Positions 6,934-49,325 of a DNA stretch of 64,000 bases are shown in pieces. The notes under the pieces are model-generated. The model searched no databases. It saw only the letters and a program-made list of their open reading frames with translations, and had not been told where the DNA came from. How positions within the stretch are numbered: the stretch's first letter is position 1; every line of letters begins with the position of its first letter. Position numbers and translations under genes: made by a program. Source of the DNA: Cyanobacteriota bacterium SRBZ.bins.94.201705 (lineage in GTDB: Bacteria; Cyanobacteriota; Cyanobacteriia; Cyanobacteriales; Cyanobacteriaceae); contig JAUQQP010000044.1 of the NCBI GenBank assembly GCA_030549855.1, positions 62,001 to 126,000 of the forward strand. The letters are read 5' to 3'.

Positions 6934-8022
6934 ATGGTAGACGCGATAATTATTGCCATATTCATTCTCGCTTTTGCGGGAATAGGGTTTGACGTGGTAG
7001 AATTGTTGCCGGAGGACATCCAGGCACAAATATCCAACATTCAGGCGTTTAGATGGCTAACAGCAGGTTTTGCCTCCATCATCGGCTTAGCCGTAGGCTT
7101 GGTAGCACAAACCACTTATCGTCGTTTGGAACAAAGAATTAGACAAACTCCCATTGAGGTAATTATAACAAGGGCCATTGGGCTGGTAGTGGGGTTATTG
7201 TTGGCTAATCTGCTACTAGCACCTATTTTCCTATTACCTGTGCCGGAGAAGTTTAGTTTTCTCAAGCCCATGATTGCCATACTGGGCAGTGTGATGTTAA
7301 TATACTTGGGGGTTTCCTTGGCAGACGCCCACGGGCGCACCTTTCTGCGTCTTATCAACCCCAACAGTGTAGAATGGATGCTAGTGGCAGAGGGGACTTT
7401 AACCCCTGTTAGACCTAAAATTATTGATACCAGTTGTATAATCGACGGGAGAATCCAACAACTGCTAGCCACTGGCTTTATAGAGGGGCAAATTTTGGTG
7501 CCTCAATTTATCCTGCAGGAGTTGCAACAATTGGCCGATGCCAGTAATGATCAAAAAAGGGCAAGGGGAAGAAGGGGTTTAGACATTCTCAACCGTATGC
7601 AACAGGAGTATCCCGACAAGATTGTCATCCATCCCGAGGAGTATGAGGATAGTCACACCACAGATGCCAAACTGTTACGCCTTGCCCATGAGATTAATGC
7701 TATGCTCATTACCAATGACTTTAATTTGAGCAAAGTGGCTAGTCTGCAGAAAATTCCCGTGTTAAACATAAACGACTTAGCCCAAGCAGTTCGTCCCATT
7801 TACCTGCCCGGGGATTATATCGATATTAAAATTCTCAAACATGGGAAGGAGCCGAGTCAAGGGGTAGGCTACCTAGAAGATGGTACCATGGTAGTAGTTG
7901 AAGAGGGAAATAACCACGTAGGTGAACAGTTGCGGGTGGTAGTAACCTCTTCCCTGCAGACTGCGGCTGGGAGGATGATTTTTGCCAAGACTCTGGCTTC
8001 TACCGTTTCCCAGAATAACTAA
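6934..8022 (+). CDS. membrane PIN/TRAM-domain protein (YacL-like)
   Basis: A 362-residue protein with about four N-terminal membrane segments (residues 3-20, 40-60, 82-105, 110-132), a PIN nuclease-like domain (about 165-285; acidic residues in IIDTSCIIDGR, FILQELQQLAD, DAKLLRLA and LITNDFNLSK) and a C-terminal TRAM domain (about 290-350, ending GRMIFAKT). This is the architecture of Bacillus YacL and many cyanobacterial homologues. PIN domains usually cleave RNA and TRAM domains bind RNA, so a membrane-tethered RNase is the likely role. A TATAAT lies at 6892, about 40 bases before the start. Confidence 0.85.
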   Translation: MVDAIIIAIFILAFAGIGFDVVELLPEDIQAQISNIQAFRWLTAGFASIIGLAVGLVAQTTYRRLEQRIRQTPIEVIITRAIGLVVGLLLANLLLAPIFLLPVPEKFSFLKPMIAILGSVMLIYLGVSLADAHGRTFLRLINPNSVEWMLVAEGTLTPVRPKIIDTSCIIDGRIQQLLATGFIEGQILVPQFILQELQQLADASNDQKRARGRRGLDILNRMQQEYPDKIVIHPEEYEDSHTTDAKLLRLAHEINAMLITNDFNLSKVASLQKIPVLNINDLAQAVRPIYLPGDYIDIKILKHGKEPSQGVGYLEDGTMVVVEEGNNHVGEQLRVVVTSSLQTAAGRMIFAKTLASTVSQNN

Positions 8023-8037
8023 CCTAATACGGACGCC

Positions 8038-8053
8038 CTCTGCCGAAGCAGAG
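8038..8053. other. short hairpin between convergent genes
   Basis: CTCTGC-CGAA-GCAGAG is a perfect 6-bp stem with a stable CGAA tetraloop between the convergent PIN/TRAM and LON-domain genes. Neither strand has a T-run after it, so it may protect 3' ends rather than terminate transcription. Confidence 0.35.
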
Positions 8054-8089
8054 AGACAGGGGGGATAACCATCTCCCACACAGCTGTAC

Positions 8090-8728
8090 TTACTGGAGTG
8101 CATCTTTTAATGCCACACGGGCTGCCAGGTTGCTCCTTGTGGTACTCAGTATCTCCGCTTCTCTTTGTAGTCTTTGATAAGTATCCTGCATTTCAAGGAG
8201 AAACTGTTGTTCCATGGCAACCCCATAGAGATTGCTAGCCACCCAGTAGGACAATTCTAGCGGTTGTGTGGGGAGGTTTTCCGGCAATTGGATACTTTGA
8301 CCCGTCAGTTTAGCAGATAATCTTACCACATCTTTGAGGAGAGTCAACACCTCTTGCGCCTTGCCATAGACGTCTTCTTGGGTAGGCCAGTCGTCAATCC
8401 ATTCTACCAAGCCGACACGGAAGGGTTTTTCTCGGACATATTCCAGAAGGCGGAATCGTTGTTGCCCAAGGGTGAGAATCTTCCACCGATCGTCTGGTAA
8501 TCTTTCATAGTGGATTATTTCTGCACAACAGCCTACCTTAGCGATTTCCCCATTGAAGGGGTTGATCATCAACACCCCAAAGCGTCGATCATATTCAAGG
8601 ATGGTGTTAACCATCATCCGATAGCGATACTCGAATATGTGTAGAGGAAGAGGACGTCCTGGAAAAAGTACCACTTCCGGTAGGGGGAATAGAGGTAATT
8701 CTCTTACTGCCAGGGAGGAAGATGTCAT
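8090..8728 (-). CDS. LON substrate-binding domain protein
   Basis: A 212-residue protein consisting of the N-terminal substrate-binding domain of Lon protease without the ATPase and protease parts. Residues 10-200 show the usual pattern: LPLFPLPEVVLFPGRPLPLHIFE, RYRMMV, then FGVLMI and VGCCAEI. Stand-alone LON domains are widespread in cyanobacteria; a chaperone or adaptor role is assumed but unproven. The ATG is at 8728, and promoter-like sequence lies upstream among A/T-rich DNA. It is convergent with the PIN/TRAM gene. Confidence 0.85.
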   Translation of the reverse strand: MTSSSLAVRELPLFPLPEVVLFPGRPLPLHIFEYRYRMMVNTILEYDRRFGVLMINPFNGEIAKVGCCAEIIHYERLPDDRWKILTLGQQRFRLLEYVREKPFRVGLVEWIDDWPTQEDVYGKAQEVLTLLKDVVRLSAKLTGQSIQLPENLPTQPLELSYWVASNLYGVAMEQQFLLEMQDTYQRLQREAEILSTTRSNLAARVALKDALQ

Positions 8729-8797
8729 GATTTTTTTCTGAAAAACGCTTCTTTCTTATAATTTATCCCAGGTAAAGGTCTTCTGACACAAAGAAAT

Positions 8798-8812
8798 CCC
8801 CTATGGGAGGGG
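8798..8812 (-). terminator. weak hairpin between nblA and the LON gene
   Basis: A CCCCT/AGGGG 5-bp stem followed on the minus strand by the T-rich sequence ATTTCTTT. It lies 140 bases beyond the nblA stop and could end an nblA transcript. The stem is short. Confidence 0.3.
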
Positions 8813-8841
8813 TTGACAAAATAAAAAAAATGGCATACTAT
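8813..8841 (+). promoter_or_regulatory. near-consensus promoter pointing antisense into nblA
   Basis: TTGACA (8813-8818), an exact -35 consensus, is followed by a 17-base A-rich spacer and TACTAT (8836-8841). No plus-strand gene follows: transcription starting near 8848 would cross about 100 non-coding bases and then run antisense through nblA (8952-9137). This is one of the best sigma-70 matches I noticed in the window. Confidence 0.55.
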
Positions 8842-8951
8842 GTGTATACTGGGTTTTTCCGTGCTTTTTAACCGCCACACCATTTACTGGGACTGTGACA
8901 GGACTCCCCCGGGTTAGGGGGGAGAAATGGCCTGTAGGGGGGATGTCATGG

Positions 8952-9137
8952 TCAGCCCTCTTCCAGGCCCCATTTGTGTTTTAATATATCCTTGTACAGG
9001 TTTTCCCGGATTAGCATTTCTGCATATAGTTTAACCAAAAAATCCTGGGCTTGTTCCCTTGTCATCTTTGCCACCTGCATTTGGAAGTGGCGAAGACTTA
9101 ACTGTTGTTCTAATGATAATCCTTCAAAGTCATACAT
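8952..9137 (-). CDS. nblA: phycobilisome degradation protein NblA
   Basis: NblA is a small adaptor made under nitrogen or sulfur starvation; it binds phycobiliproteins and brings them to Clp protease so that the phycobilisome is dismantled. The 61-residue product has the family length and pattern: FEGLSLEQQLSLRHFQMQV at 4-22, then MTREQAQDFLVKLYAEMLIRE with the conserved LYAEMLIRENLY segment. A GGAGG site precedes the ATG. A candidate NtcA box lies upstream and a strong opposing promoter downstream, so both activation and antisense control are possible. Confidence 0.95.
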   Translation of the reverse strand: MYDFEGLSLEQQLSLRHFQMQVAKMTREQAQDFLVKLYAEMLIRENLYKDILKHKWGLEEG

Positions 9138-9218
9138 ATTCCTTTTTGCCTCCTGATATAACTAATCCCTGCCCAATAGTTAACACATGGGGGAGGAAAA
9201 AACTGCTCACCACGAACA

Positions 9219-9232
9219 GTAGGTATAAATAC
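9219..9232 (-). promoter_or_regulatory. candidate NtcA-binding site upstream of nblA
   Basis: GTA-N8-TAC, the core NtcA recognition pattern, occurs 82 bases upstream of the nblA start. A possible promoter (TTAACT at 9178-9183 and TATATC at 9155-9160, 17-base spacer) lies between, putting the box near -77, further out than the usual -41.5. nblA is NtcA-dependent in other cyanobacteria. A chance match in this short gap has a probability of a few percent. Confidence 0.45.
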
Positions 9233-9271
9233 CGGGGGGATTGGGAGTGGGGGATGTAATTATAAACAGCC

Positions 9272-10459
9272 TCAGAGAATGTCCAGTTGAATTTCCTGTT
9301 TGTTGAAGGGTAAATCCTCGTTGATGGCTTTAATTTCTTCAAGGGTGGCGGCGTTGATTTTGTCAATGTAGTGTTCTAAAATGGCTTGCATCCTTGGATG
9401 ATAAAAACGGTGGAAACTGTAATTGGGGGTAGCGGGAAAACCACGACGACGCTTATGACTCCCTCCCGCACCAGGGTCATACATTTGTATTCCATTTTCT
9501 ATTGCCCACTCTATGGGTTTATAGTAGCATGTTTCAAAGTGAAGACAGTTGTATTCTTGAAGTGCCCCCCAATAACGCCCATACAGATTTTCCCCCTTGC
9601 GAATACAAAAAGACATGCCCACTGGATGGTGTAAATCCTCTTGACGATAGGCTACCATCAACAACACCCGGTGGGAATAATTGGGATATAATTGTTCAAA
9701 AAATTTCCTGGTCAGGTACTTACTTCCCCAATAGAATTTATCACAGGTGCTACTGTAAAAACGATAGATTTCTGGATACAAATAATGGGGTATCTCCTCC
9801 CCCACCAATGGCCTTAAAATTAACCCCGTCTTTTCCACAATCCTCCTTTCTCGTTTGATGTTTTTCCTTTGATCTGAGCTAAAAATACGCAAGAAATCAT
9901 CAAAGGATTGAAAGTTTTGGTTGGACCAAATGTAGCTATAATGCAGCCAGCCACAGAAGCTAAATTTAGAAATAATTTCTCCCCACTGTGGGTCAACAAA
10001 AAGAAAATTACAACCGGATAGTTTATTATTAATACAAAAACGGTCAATGGCACCAATCATCATCTCGGTGATTTGCCATTCATCCTCACCACTGGCTATC
10101 AAAAAACGATAACCCACCGCGGGAGTAAAGGGAGTCATCCCCACTAATTTGGGAAAATAGCGTATACCTAAACGATAAGCTAAATCGGCCCATTGATGAT
10201 CAAATACAAACTCCCCATAGTTGTGACTCTTAATATACAAAGGCGCAGCTGCTACTAGTTGATTCCCCCGCCACACCGTGAGATGACAGGGTTGCCAGCC
10301 TACGCTGCCTTTTACACTCCCAGAAGTTTCCAAATTGTTTAACCATTCCCACTCTAAAAAGGGAGTCTTTAACGGTAATGCCATCTCATCCCAGGCTGAC
10401 TGGGGTATCTCGCTGATTCTCTCATGCCACCGTAGGGTATAGCCGCTATTCCTCATCAC
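9272..10459 (-). CDS. GNAT-like N-acyltransferase (peptidogalycan/DUF482 family)
   Basis: A 395-residue protein of the FemAB/GNAT-like family often labelled peptidogalycan biosynthesis protein. Visible features are the N-terminal WHERISEIPQSAWDE segment, FLEWEWLNNLE near 34, VAAAPLYIKSHNYGEFVFD near 70, SSDQRKNIKRERR near 195, and the C-terminal GRYWGALQEYNCLHFETCYY and DPGAGGSHKRRRGF segments, which are typical of this family. No transmembrane segment is visible. The substrate is unknown. Divergent from argG with 167 bases between. Confidence 0.8.
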   Translation of the reverse strand: MMRNSGYTLRWHERISEIPQSAWDEMALPLKTPFLEWEWLNNLETSGSVKGSVGWQPCHLTVWRGNQLVAAAPLYIKSHNYGEFVFDHQWADLAYRLGIRYFPKLVGMTPFTPAVGYRFLIASGEDEWQITEMMIGAIDRFCINNKLSGCNFLFVDPQWGEIISKFSFCGWLHYSYIWSNQNFQSFDDFLRIFSSDQRKNIKRERRIVEKTGLILRPLVGEEIPHYLYPEIYRFYSSTCDKFYWGSKYLTRKFFEQLYPNYSHRVLLMVAYRQEDLHHPVGMSFCIRKGENLYGRYWGALQEYNCLHFETCYYKPIEWAIENGIQMYDPGAGGSHKRRRGFPATPNYSFHRFYHPRMQAILEHYIDKINAATLEEIKAINEDLPFNKQEIQLDIL

Positions 10460-10567
10460 ACCCTCCCTTATCCGTTATAGGCCATTATAGCTAAACTACT
10501 TAATCTTTCTTTACATCACCTGGGACTGTTCCTTTAATGTGGTCACACTAGATACAAATCTCTAGAA

Positions 10568-10626: not shown

Positions 10627-11835
10627 ATGAGTCGTGCCAACAAGGTAGTATTAGCTTATTCCGGCGGTGTAGACACTTCTGTTTGTATTCCCTACCTAAA
10701 ACATGAATGGGGGGTGAAAGAGGTAATCACCCTGGCAGTGGACTTGGGACAAGGAGATGAATTACAATCTATCCAACAGAAGGCGTTAAAATGTGGGGCA
10801 GATGAGTCTTTAGTGATAGACGCTAAGGAAGAATTTGTCACTCAGTATGCCTATCGCGCCATTAAGGCTAATGCTTTGTATGAAAACCGTTATCCTCTTT
10901 CCACTGCCCTGGCTCGTCCCTTAATTGCTAAACTGTTAGTAGAAACGGCGGCAAAATATGGTGCCGATGCCGTTGCCCATGGTTGTACTGGCAAGGGCAA
11001 TGATCAGGTAAGATTTGACTTGGCTATTACTACCCTAAACCCCTCCCTGAAAATTCTAGCACCCGCTAGGGAATGGAGGATGAGTAGAGAGGAGACTATC
11101 GCTTATGGGGAGAAATATGGCATTGAATTCCCCGTTAAGAAATCTTCCCCCTACAGTATAGATTGTAACCTTTTGGGACGCAGCATAGAAGCCGGGCCTC
11201 TAGAAAATCCTATGACTGAGCCTCCTGAGGAAATATACCTATTGACAAAATCCATCCAAGATGCTCCCAATGAACCTCAGTATGTGGAAATAACCTTTGA
11301 AAAGGGAATACCTGTGGCTTTAGATGGCCAAACCCTACCCCCCGTGGAGTTGATAAGCAGGCTAAATGAAATTGCAGGCAATCACGGCGTGGGGAGGATT
11401 GACATGATTGAAAATAGGGTGGTGGGAATCAAATCCAGGGAAATATACGAAACCCCCGCCTTGCTGGTATTAATAAAGGCACATGAGGATTTGGAAAGCC
11501 TTACCCTCACCAGTGATGTCACCCATTATAAACGAGCCCAGGTGGATTTGACCTATAGCCGTCTGGTATATGAAGGAATGTGGTATAGTCCCCTAAAAGA
11601 GGCATTAGATGTCTTTATCGACAAGACGCAAGAAAGAGTTAGTGGGGTAGTGAGGGTAAAATTCCATAAAGGCAATGCTATAATTGTGGGGAGACAGTCA
11701 GACAACTCCCTATACACCCCCTCTTTAGCTACCTACAGTGAAGACGATGAATTTAACCACAAGGCGGCAGAGGGGTTTATCTACATTTGGGGTTTAGCTT
11801 CCCGCATTTGGGCCTCCAAGACCCGTTCCTCCTAA
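10627..11835 (+). CDS. argG: argininosuccinate synthase
   Basis: Condenses citrulline and aspartate with ATP to form argininosuccinate, the penultimate step of arginine synthesis. The 402-residue product has the ATP-pyrophosphatase loop AYSGGVDTS (residues 9-17), the [14 protein letters not shown] signature near 118 and [10 protein letters not shown] near 180. Length is normal for the family. A GAGGAG site precedes the ATG. It converges with cobQ, leaving only eight bases between the stop codons, with no room for a separate terminator. Confidence 0.98.
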
Positions 11836-47471: not shown

Positions 47472-47490
47472 CCCCCAACCTCGCCTGTTA

Positions 47491-47875
47491 TGGAGCTGAG
47501 CAGAGTCGAACTGCTGTCCAGACTAGCTATTCACCTCCCGCTCCTTCACAGGCTTAGCCCTTCTGACCCTCAGGGCGGGAACTGTCATTTGTCCCTGACA
47601 GTGGGGATTTCTGGTTTTCTCTTATCCCTAAGACAGACCAGACACCATCTTAGGGAGCACCCGTTGGGGTTTGCCCATAGTGCTTAACGGGGTCACACTA
47701 TGAGCGCTCGAGCCTTTCTCTAGGCCTTAGGCAGCTACAGGAGCTGCTTTACGAGCAAAAGGAACGATGTTGTTCGCACTTACTTTTTTTGAGCCTTTTT
47801 TTTACGAGAGAAGACTCACTCTCGGCCTGCTTCACGGTTCGGCTTTCGCTAGCCTGTCGAAACCGTTACAGCCCC
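47491..47875 (-). ncRNA. ssrA: transfer-messenger RNA (tmRNA)
   Basis: Rescues stalled ribosomes and tags the nascent protein. The 5' end GGGGCTGTAACGGTTTCGAC (from 47875) is the standard tmRNA start and pairs with the 3' end CAGCTCC (47492-47498) as the acceptor stem, with a T-arm CAGTTCGACTCTG. The CCA end is not encoded. It is a one-piece molecule of about 385 bases with a resume codon and tag frame at 47777-47727. Confidence 0.96.
47727..47777 (-). other. tmRNA tag-peptide reading frame
   Basis: Encodes ANNIVPFARKAAPVAA followed by TAA, the tag shared by most cyanobacteria and ending in the usual hydrophobic AA recognised by ClpXP-type proteases. It lies inside ssrA. Confidence 0.95.
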
Positions 47876-47896
47876 ATGCCTTTCTTCTACCTATTA

Positions 47897-47926
47897 ATCA
47901 TAACCCATTGCCCTCCGGATTGACAA
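47897..47926 (-). promoter_or_regulatory. ssrA promoter
   Basis: TTGTCA (plus-strand 47921-47926), an 18-base spacer and TATGAT (plus-strand 47897-47902) lie about 20 bases upstream of the mature tmRNA 5' end; RNase P would trim the short leader. Confidence 0.55.
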
Positions 47927-48002
47927 GGGGCTAGGACAAATTTTTTCACAAAGGATTAATTATACTGTAAACTGACCACTGTTGGAACAAAGGAGAAGAG
48001 CC

Positions 48003-49325
48003 TTGTCTAGCTTCATATCCAAGACTCACGGGGAGAACAAATATCAGAAGAGAAGAATTACGGCAAAATCCAGACGAGTTACAGGAAAACCACAGGAAGT
48101 GGCGGCAGGTGAGGAAAAAGCCAGTAAGCCACAAAACTGGATGGCTATTATAGTCAATAACGTTTTCCGGCTGACCATTGCAGGGGTAGGGATGGGAACC
48201 ATTTTTGGCACCCTCTTGGCCAATTTAGACCTAACCAAGCCGGTTTTTCCCAAAATAGACCTGCCTTTTGTGGAAAAAATACCTCTTAAACGGGTAAAAG
48301 AAGAGGAAAAGACAACGTCTCCCTCCCAGTCAGCCGCTAACCACACCCAGCAACCATCCCCCAATACCCCCAAACCTATCGCCTACATTCCAGAAGCCCG
48401 CAAACCGGATTTGTTGAAATTCACCAGGGAATTGATGCCGTTGCGGGAGAAATTCAAAACCGTGGCTGCTAAGTATCCTAAATTACAACTGAGCGCCTTT
48501 TTTGTGGATTTGGACAATGGGAATTATGTGAATTACAACGGAAACACGGCCTTCCCAGCGGCGAGTACCATCAAAGTGCCCATATTGGTGGCCTTTTTCC
48601 AGGATGTGGACAGGGGCTTAATCCGGCTGGATGAAAAGCTGACGATGACGGAGAAGAATAAGGCGGGGGGTTCTGGTAGTATGCAATACCAACCACTAGG
48701 TACACAATATACTGCCCTCTACACCGCCACGGAAATGATAATAAGCAGTGACAATACAGCCACCAACATGTTGATAGAGAGAATGGGGGGCATAGAGGAG
48801 CTGAATAGACGTTTTCGGGAGTGGGGATTGGAACATACAGTAATACGCAATCTGTTGCCGGATTTGGAGGGGACCAACACCACCAGTGCAAGAGATTTGG
48901 CTGTCCTGTTGGGGAAAGTGAATCAGGGAGATTTGATCTCCTTACGCTCAAGAGATCGTCTTTTGGAAATAATGCGACAGACGAAGACTAGAACCCTTCT
49001 ACCCCAAGGCCTTGAGCCGTCCGCTACTATCGCCCACAAGACAGGGGATATTGGGATGGTATTGGGGGATGCCGGTATTGTAGACATGCCCACCGGTAAG
49101 CGTTACATTGCCGCTGTGTTGGTGAAACGGCCCCATAATGATCCGGCAGGCAGGCTTGCTATACAAGAAGTGTCTCGTACTGCCTATCAACACTTCAAAT
49201 GGTACCAGGCGACAGCCCCCAGCAAGGTAGAGACAAACCCAACTCCCGTCACTACTACTACTAGTGATGACAGAAATGACAGTCCCCCCCCCTCAGGTAT
49301 CCACAACAACAGGATTACCGACTAG
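48003..49325 (+). CDS. class A beta-lactamase-like serine hydrolase
   Basis: A membrane-anchored penicillin-binding or beta-lactamase-related protein. From the TTG at 48003 it has 440 residues; the frame also opens at TTG 47982, but AAGGAG sits just before 48003. One membrane helix (about 48-68) follows a basic tail. The catalytic domain has STIKVP (Ser-x-x-Lys), SSDNTATNML (SDN), PDLEGTN (Glu) and HKTGDIG (KTG), so the active site looks intact. Such chromosomal proteins in cyanobacteria probably act on cell wall; hydrolysis of antibiotics is unproven. The C-terminus is Thr/Pro-rich and likely disordered. Confidence 0.8.
   Translation: MSSFISKTHGENKYQKRRITAKSRRVTGKPQEVAAGEEKASKPQNWMAIIVNNVFRLTIAGVGMGTIFGTLLANLDLTKPVFPKIDLPFVEKIPLKRVKEEEKTTSPSQSAANHTQQPSPNTPKPIAYIPEARKPDLLKFTRELMPLREKFKTVAAKYPKLQLSAFFVDLDNGNYVNYNGNTAFPAASTIKVPILVAFFQDVDRGLIRLDEKLTMTEKNKAGGSGSMQYQPLGTQYTALYTATEMIISSDNTATNMLIERMGGIEELNRRFREWGLEHTVIRNLLPDLEGTNTTSARDLAVLLGKVNQGDLISLRSRDRLLEIMRQTKTRTLLPQGLEPSATIAHKTGDIGMVLGDAGIVDMPTGKRYIAAVLVKRPHNDPAGRLAIQEVSRTAYQHFKWYQATAPSKVETNPTPVTTTTSDDRNDSPPPSGIHNNRITD

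Follow-up and report, generated by a model that had tools for sequence, protein, structure and literature searches.

A lineage-specific promoter candidate facing the 3' end of nblA, and a conserved hairpin found behind nblA in relatives

NblA starts the breakdown of the phycobilisome, the light-harvesting antennae of the cell. In the window (the whole stretch of 64,000 nucleotides that was analysed), nblA lies on the minus strand between a FemAB-like gene and a LON substrate-binding-domain gene, and a promoter-like site behind its stop codon points back into it (Table 1). The locus raises the question of whether this site directs an antisense RNA that controls nblA.

Table 1. Features around nblA in the window, with example loci of the hairpin (R1) conserved behind nblA in relatives
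Feature	Position	Strand	Evidence
LON substrate-binding-domain gene, downstream of nblA	8090-8728	-	Pfam PF02190, 2.2e-37
Lineage-specific segment, joins homologous LON and nblA blocks	8790-8951		Comparison to sister genome G001
Second terminator-like hairpin CCCCTCCCATAGGGG, then ATTTCTTTGT	8798-8812	-	Terminator scanner
Promoter-like site TTGACA-N17-TACTAT, predicted start about 8848	8813-8841	+	Direct read, 10/12, shuffles
Weak hairpin GUAUAC-ACAUA-GUAUGC, 2 nt, U8AU4; possible nblA terminator	8818-8849	-	Fold, strict scan
Hairpin CTCCCCC-N7-GGGGGAG without U-tract, within putative short RNA	8904-8924	+	Fold
Terminator-like hairpin (8929-8969, -22.4 kcal/mol), 3 nt, then TTTGTGTTTT	8929-8982	+	Fold, strict scan
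nblA, 61 aa	8952-9137	-	Pfam PF04485, E 1.3e-21; G001 counterpart 93% identical
FemAB-like gene, upstream of nblA	9272-10459	-	Pfam PF04339, 3.5e-140
R1, example loci outside the window	L174:1372-1448; L167:1377-1453; L011:1681-1757	-; -; +

The promoter-like site behind nblA

Direct reading of the plus strand confirmed the position and direction given in the first-pass annotation, with TTGACA at 8813-8818 and TACTAT at 8836-8841 separated by 17 nt and facing nblA. The hexamers stand within the 16-18 nt of a sigma70 (SigA)-type promoter, and the promoter scanner counted 10 of 12 consensus matches with no TG before the -10. Locally the site is mildly unlikely by chance, a plus-strand site this good or better occurring in 54 of 2000 shuffles of the 8729-8951 spacer. 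Across both strands of the window, 32 sites of at least 10/12 were found compared to a mean of 16.4 (range 10-27) in 10 dinucleotide shuffles, and about half of the window's sites of such quality are expected by chance. The narrower pattern TTGACA-N16-18-TANNNT occurred seven times compared to 2.0 expected. A palindrome over the -10 was considered as a regulon operator and rejected, with one site in the genome. The annotation's remark that the site has no plus-strand gene to serve was also supported, in that none is evident: the first family match further along the plus strand is argG (10627-11835), and the plus-strand ORFs before it, of up to 118 aa and antisense to nblA and FemAB, look like chance frames.

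An imperfect inverted repeat upstream of the gene (9202-9220, minus strand), also scored as terminator-like, is a possible operator. TGTTC-N4-TGAGCA is present in all nine aligned family nblA loci and is preceded by GTA-N4-TAC in eight of them. The genome also carries a second, divergent nblA (G000:C21:6150-6296; loci L001 and L202), behind which lies a simple C4/G4 hairpin with a T-run and no R1 match.

Hairpins on both strands and the extent of a putative RNA

A transcript beginning at about 8848 had been expected to overlap the whole nblA mRNA, a claim weakened by the strong hairpin with a U-rich tail that starts 81 nt past this predicted start. In a separate fold the hairpin at 8929-8969 reached -23.2 kcal/mol, and 13 of 200 shuffles of 8925-8985 were as stable. 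Terminator-like sites of this kind at -20 kcal/mol or lower numbered two in the window compared to a mean of 0.25 and a maximum of two in 24 shuffles. The terminator scanner reported no plus-strand terminator within 7800-10500, and probably missed this one because its stem is interrupted and its U-tract begins only after 3 nt. Going by the fold, a transcript begun at 8848 should end near 8980 and cover only the last nine or so nblA codons. Together with the interrupted stem, an imperfect U-tract set 3 nt off the hairpin makes read-through possible. The 5' arm lies in the lineage-specific DNA and the 3' arm in the last nblA codons; as the 5' arm pairs with these codons, the nblA mRNA can end in a matching hairpin as well.

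Combining a promoter motif with two hairpins and a terminator-like end in about 130 nt of one strand, the region from about 8848 to 8980 resembles an independent small RNA gene, which would have targets in trans and overlap the nblA tail incidentally. The hairpin at 8904-8924 (-15.2 kcal/mol) was no better than shuffles (45 of 200). Against such a gene, the fold of the whole putative RNA was no better than shuffles either (z = 0.22). Apart from tmRNA matches and two chance hits, Rfam searches of the window and of 8600-9400 were negative, and no homologue was found in 14 other family genomes beyond short chance matches. We consider a small RNA gene very unlikely here. The tmRNA matches lie at 47488-48042 on the minus strand, where a standard match (137.8 bits) overlaps a permuted-tmRNA match of 48.8 bits that is borderline to the cut-off of 47 and is perhaps a shadow of the standard one.

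On the minus strand, about 100 nt past the nblA stop, a hairpin and U-tract share their bases with the -10 and the spacer and reach the final base of the -35. As RNA, 8849-8818 reads GUAUAC-ACAUA-GUAUGC-CA-UUUUUUUUAUUUU; its stem of six pairs, one of them G-U, folds at -4.9 kcal/mol, a stability reached by none of 200 shuffles. Measured against the stable, usually G+C-rich stem and U-tract of an intrinsic terminator, the U-tract is strong and the stem weak. A strict hairpin and U-tract rule found four sites in the window including this one, compared to a mean of 0.31 in 100 shuffles, a count biased in its favour by a rule that was fixed after the site at 8830 had been seen. None of the other three sites clearly marks a gene end: one follows an ORF at a distance of 148 nt, another is over 1 kb away from any same-strand ORF end and the third falls inside ORFs. 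The hairpin at 8849-8818 was missing from the terminator scanner's list and from a permissive hairpin scan of the window; that scan returned 76 plus-strand and 122 minus-strand sites, which was too many, and it was replaced by two stricter scans. The second terminator-like hairpin on this strand was matched in stability by 72 of 200 shuffles and does not stand out from them.

The hairpin and U-tract at 8849-8818 form a possible nblA terminator, and since its complement supplies the -10 and the A-rich spacer, the promoter resemblance may partly be a by-product. Carried to its end, this would leave no promoter at all, the plus-strand motif being the complement of an nblA terminator that happens to hold TTGACA and TANNNT. 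The position of the -10 within the hairpin, a spacer that is largely the complement of the U-tract, and the share of such motifs expected by chance all fit that explanation. However, TTGACA stands at ideal spacing outside the hairpin and, except for its last base, outside the U-tract, motifs of this kind are two- to threefold above chance in the window, and the terminator is itself weak; we hold the absence of any promoter to be rather doubtful. Overlapping or bidirectional terminators place the transcript ends of both strands in one intergenic stretch of DNA, and the predicted ends within 8818-8982 would share this layout.

A lineage-specific joint and the case for antisense control

The promoter-like site lies within 162 bases that have no match in the sister genome (G001), the closest compared genome and a member of the same genus, in which the LON, NblA and FemAB counterparts are 96.7%, 93% and 94% identical, respectively. 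Homology between the window and this genome extends up to 8789 on the LON side, covers 8952-9232 around nblA and resumes from 9272 on the FemAB side. The three genes are on separate contigs there (LON on C43, NblA on C79, FemAB on C60), with nblA in mid-contig between different neighbours. On C43 there are 264 bases between the contig end and LON, and C60 ends 317 bases past the FemAB match, the ends facing as FemAB and LON do in the window, so that these two genes could still be adjacent there, with an assembly gap and no nblA in between. By their coordinates, FemAB, nblA and LON are far apart in three other genomes of the family (G004, G007, G008), and nblA and LON occur together in none of the compared loci with 1.5 to 3 kb of flank. 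Searches of 14 other family genomes with 8790-8951 gave only short chance matches (E 0.02 or worse). A repeat or mobile element at 8786-8950 was rejected, the sequence being single copy in its own genome with otherwise short matches of E 0.1 or worse. As the segment is unmatched in the sister genome and the 14 family genomes and the genes lie apart in relatives, the joint between nblA and LON, with the promoter inside it, looks derived in this lineage.

Antisense promoters did not recur behind nblA in the relatives. Within 250 nt behind the nblA stop, an antisense-directed site of at least 10/12 was found in 3 of 45 relatives compared to 1.75 expected from shuffles, which is no enrichment, and a sense-direction site of the same quality was found in two; the count is confined to these 250 nt, and more distant promoters, or those with a poor -35, fall outside its reach. 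The 45 relatives remained from 56 loci after five duplicate genes were dropped together with L001 and five loci fetched for the LON side, which had no NblA match.

Antisense transcription of nblA is itself published: in the available text of a study of Anabaena (Nostoc) PCC 7120, it spans the nblA ORF and both UTRs, and antisense nblA reads prevail ahead of nitrogen step-down and are fewer at 12 h (PMC3141674). The first-pass annotation's reference to antisense nblA control in filamentous cyanobacteria is supported for this strain at the level of transcription. Neither the segment, with its short chance matches in the family genomes, nor the motif, without enrichment behind nblA, gives a sign of selection at the site; the idea is sound in kind, and the site here is a candidate for it. 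The target gene and the antisense strand are the same in both organisms, but the evidence in Anabaena is a sequenced transcript, while here it is a motif in DNA unmatched in relatives with an early stop predicted. Control of nblA at the RNA level is also known through NsrR1, a small RNA of Nostoc 7120 that regulates nblA in trans and was tested on the nblA 5' UTR; according to the sections available, it is encoded at a separate locus between alr1709 and all1710 and not beside nblA (PMC6166021, PMC7281752).

That the site is not conserved weighs little against it: the close strains Synechocystis 6803 and 6714 have 4% of antisense start sites in common in the available portion of PMC5386190, where antisense start sites, functional ones included, are described as often unconserved. 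PsbA2R, an antisense RNA of 6803 that is missing from 6714, resembles the present case in that its promoter is confined to one lineage and differs from it in that its expression was tested by Northern blot, the site here being known from sequence (PMC5386190, same portion).

A genuine antisense regulator of nblA, as proposed for Anabaena PCC 7120, would be expressed from the promoter in nitrogen sufficiency, extend through nblA and silence leaky nblA expression by duplex formation or polymerase collision. The strong motif, the want of an evident plus-strand gene, the dominance of antisense reads in Anabaena before step-down and the frequent lack of conservation of antisense start sites, functional ones included, speak for such a regulator. 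Against it stand the terminator-like hairpin early in the transcript, the missing segment in the sister genome, the lack of enrichment in the 45 relatives and, in the table text of a Nodularia spumigena study, an NblA row without an antisense mark (PMC3610870). On balance we judge it unlikely.

The best explanation, which we put at an even chance, is a lineage-specific sigma70-type promoter candidate in a joint between DNA blocks, nblA having come to lie between FemAB and LON in this genome. It builds on features observed directly, namely the motif, the capacity of both hairpins to fold and a segment missing from the relatives compared. Use of the site by RNA polymerase we infer at roughly even odds. 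If used, it would give a short RNA that begins at about 8848, stops near 8980 after the 8929-8969 hairpin and so measures about 130 nt; this RNA would pair with the nblA 3' UTR and the last nine or so codons. The effect on nblA would probably be minor, through local pairing at the 3' end or collision of polymerases, with no dedicated switch. The strong TTGACA at the ideal 17-nt spacing, the reality of antisense nblA RNA in Anabaena, the general lack of conservation of cyanobacterial antisense start sites and the unremarkable fold of the putative RNA as a whole count against this explanation. Most likely the promoter candidate is young and its activity uncertain, with nothing longer than a short RNA across the nblA tail as its product; it is perhaps active and probably not a dedicated regulator of nblA.

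A conserved hairpin behind nblA in relatives

Alignment of the nblA 3' flanks from the relatives revealed a conserved hairpin (R1) on the sense strand. A pattern derived from it lies 14-49 nt past the nblA stop in 37 of the 45 relatives, a covariance model adds two of the other eight (L012, L172), and its consensus core is GGCGACCTCCTTCTCTTGCTT-N-GTTCC ... GAAA-N-AAGCTGGGGATG-N-TGGGGCGT. The alignment comprised 34 of 35 sequences, L026 being left out by choice for its long insert. A 22-pair structure, written by hand after inspection of the sequences, paired in 89.7% of cells across the 34 sequences compared to 46-59% when slid by 1-3 columns. Changes on both sides were present in 10 pairs compared to 4-6 when slid, and 2 of 500 shuffles reached 10; further pair types in the same alignment were not above shuffles (26 compared to 25.0). 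The RNAalifold consensus was much more modest, with nine pairs and one compensatory.

At E 0.001, R1 gave 112 matches. Of the 156 genomes belonging to the window's order, which we take to be Cyanobacteriales, 110 were matched, 108 of them once. By a hand count, 31 of the matching genomes had contributed seeds and 79 had not, some of the latter being near-identical to seeds. A listed NblA match preceded 104 of the 112 on the same strand at a distance of 32-350 nt, six more were read by hand as lying 49-73 nt behind NblA matches, and the last two, both weak (E 2.3e-4 and 7.9e-4), had no listed NblA match next to them. Phylum-wide, 69 of 244 genomes matched at E 0.01, and in all 10 matching genomes from other orders of the class R1 was located 21-89 nt behind NblA. 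Adjacency in the phylum, for which the weak matches were checked in part, failed in two of the 69 genomes, which have no nblA (best E 8.4e-4 and 2.6e-3), and for five weak extra matches in G018, G022, G252 and G286 (E 7.6e-4 to 9.2e-3) not beside NblA. Nine phage nblA records were matched, and in the two examined, L237 and L238 (Microcystis phages LMM01 and MaMV-DC), there is no R1 match around the gene.

No R1 match was found in the window, in its own genome (G000) or in the sister genome, nor in the family genomes G002 (67% complete), G005, G008, G010 and G014. Among the family loci compared, the window nblA is closest, after the sister copy, to the G007 copy that bears the element (76% identical). 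The hairpin runs into a T-tract in L007, L008, L011 and L013 while most other aligned loci are without one, and termination alone therefore does not explain its conserved sequence; it may stabilise the 3' end, serve as a protein site or be a processed small RNA. Rfam gave no match in six R1 loci at E 1 and none at the element in five more at E 5. No description of a conserved RNA structure behind nblA was found in the accessible text of the open-licence literature (including PMC8400943, PMC7760959 and PMC6166021), PMC4734099 contains no occurrence of nblA, and R1 is apparently undescribed.

It is conceivable, and in our opinion quite improbable, that the genus lost the conserved hairpin RNA and replaced it by a head-on module, with the promoter of an RNA of some 130 nt over the nblA tail and a new nblA terminator in the same bases. 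Control at the 3' end of nblA would then have been rebuilt from other components, and R1 would be a regulatory RNA, so far undescribed, that acts in phycobilisome breakdown.

Because NblA triggers the breakdown of the phycobilisome, leaky expression of nblA should be costly and control at the RNA level is plausible. The candidate site offers a test of whether antisense nblA control has recurred outside Anabaena, with control over the whole gene possible but not favoured. The promoter site is ordinary in kind, and the conserved hairpin together with its absence here is the better lead. The hairpin may also be the more important of the two: its matches at E 0.001 are almost strictly tied to nblA, it occurs in several orders, it shows compensatory changes, and it has no Rfam match in the tested loci, so that tractable strains allow a direct test of whether it acts at the 3' end of nblA mRNA.
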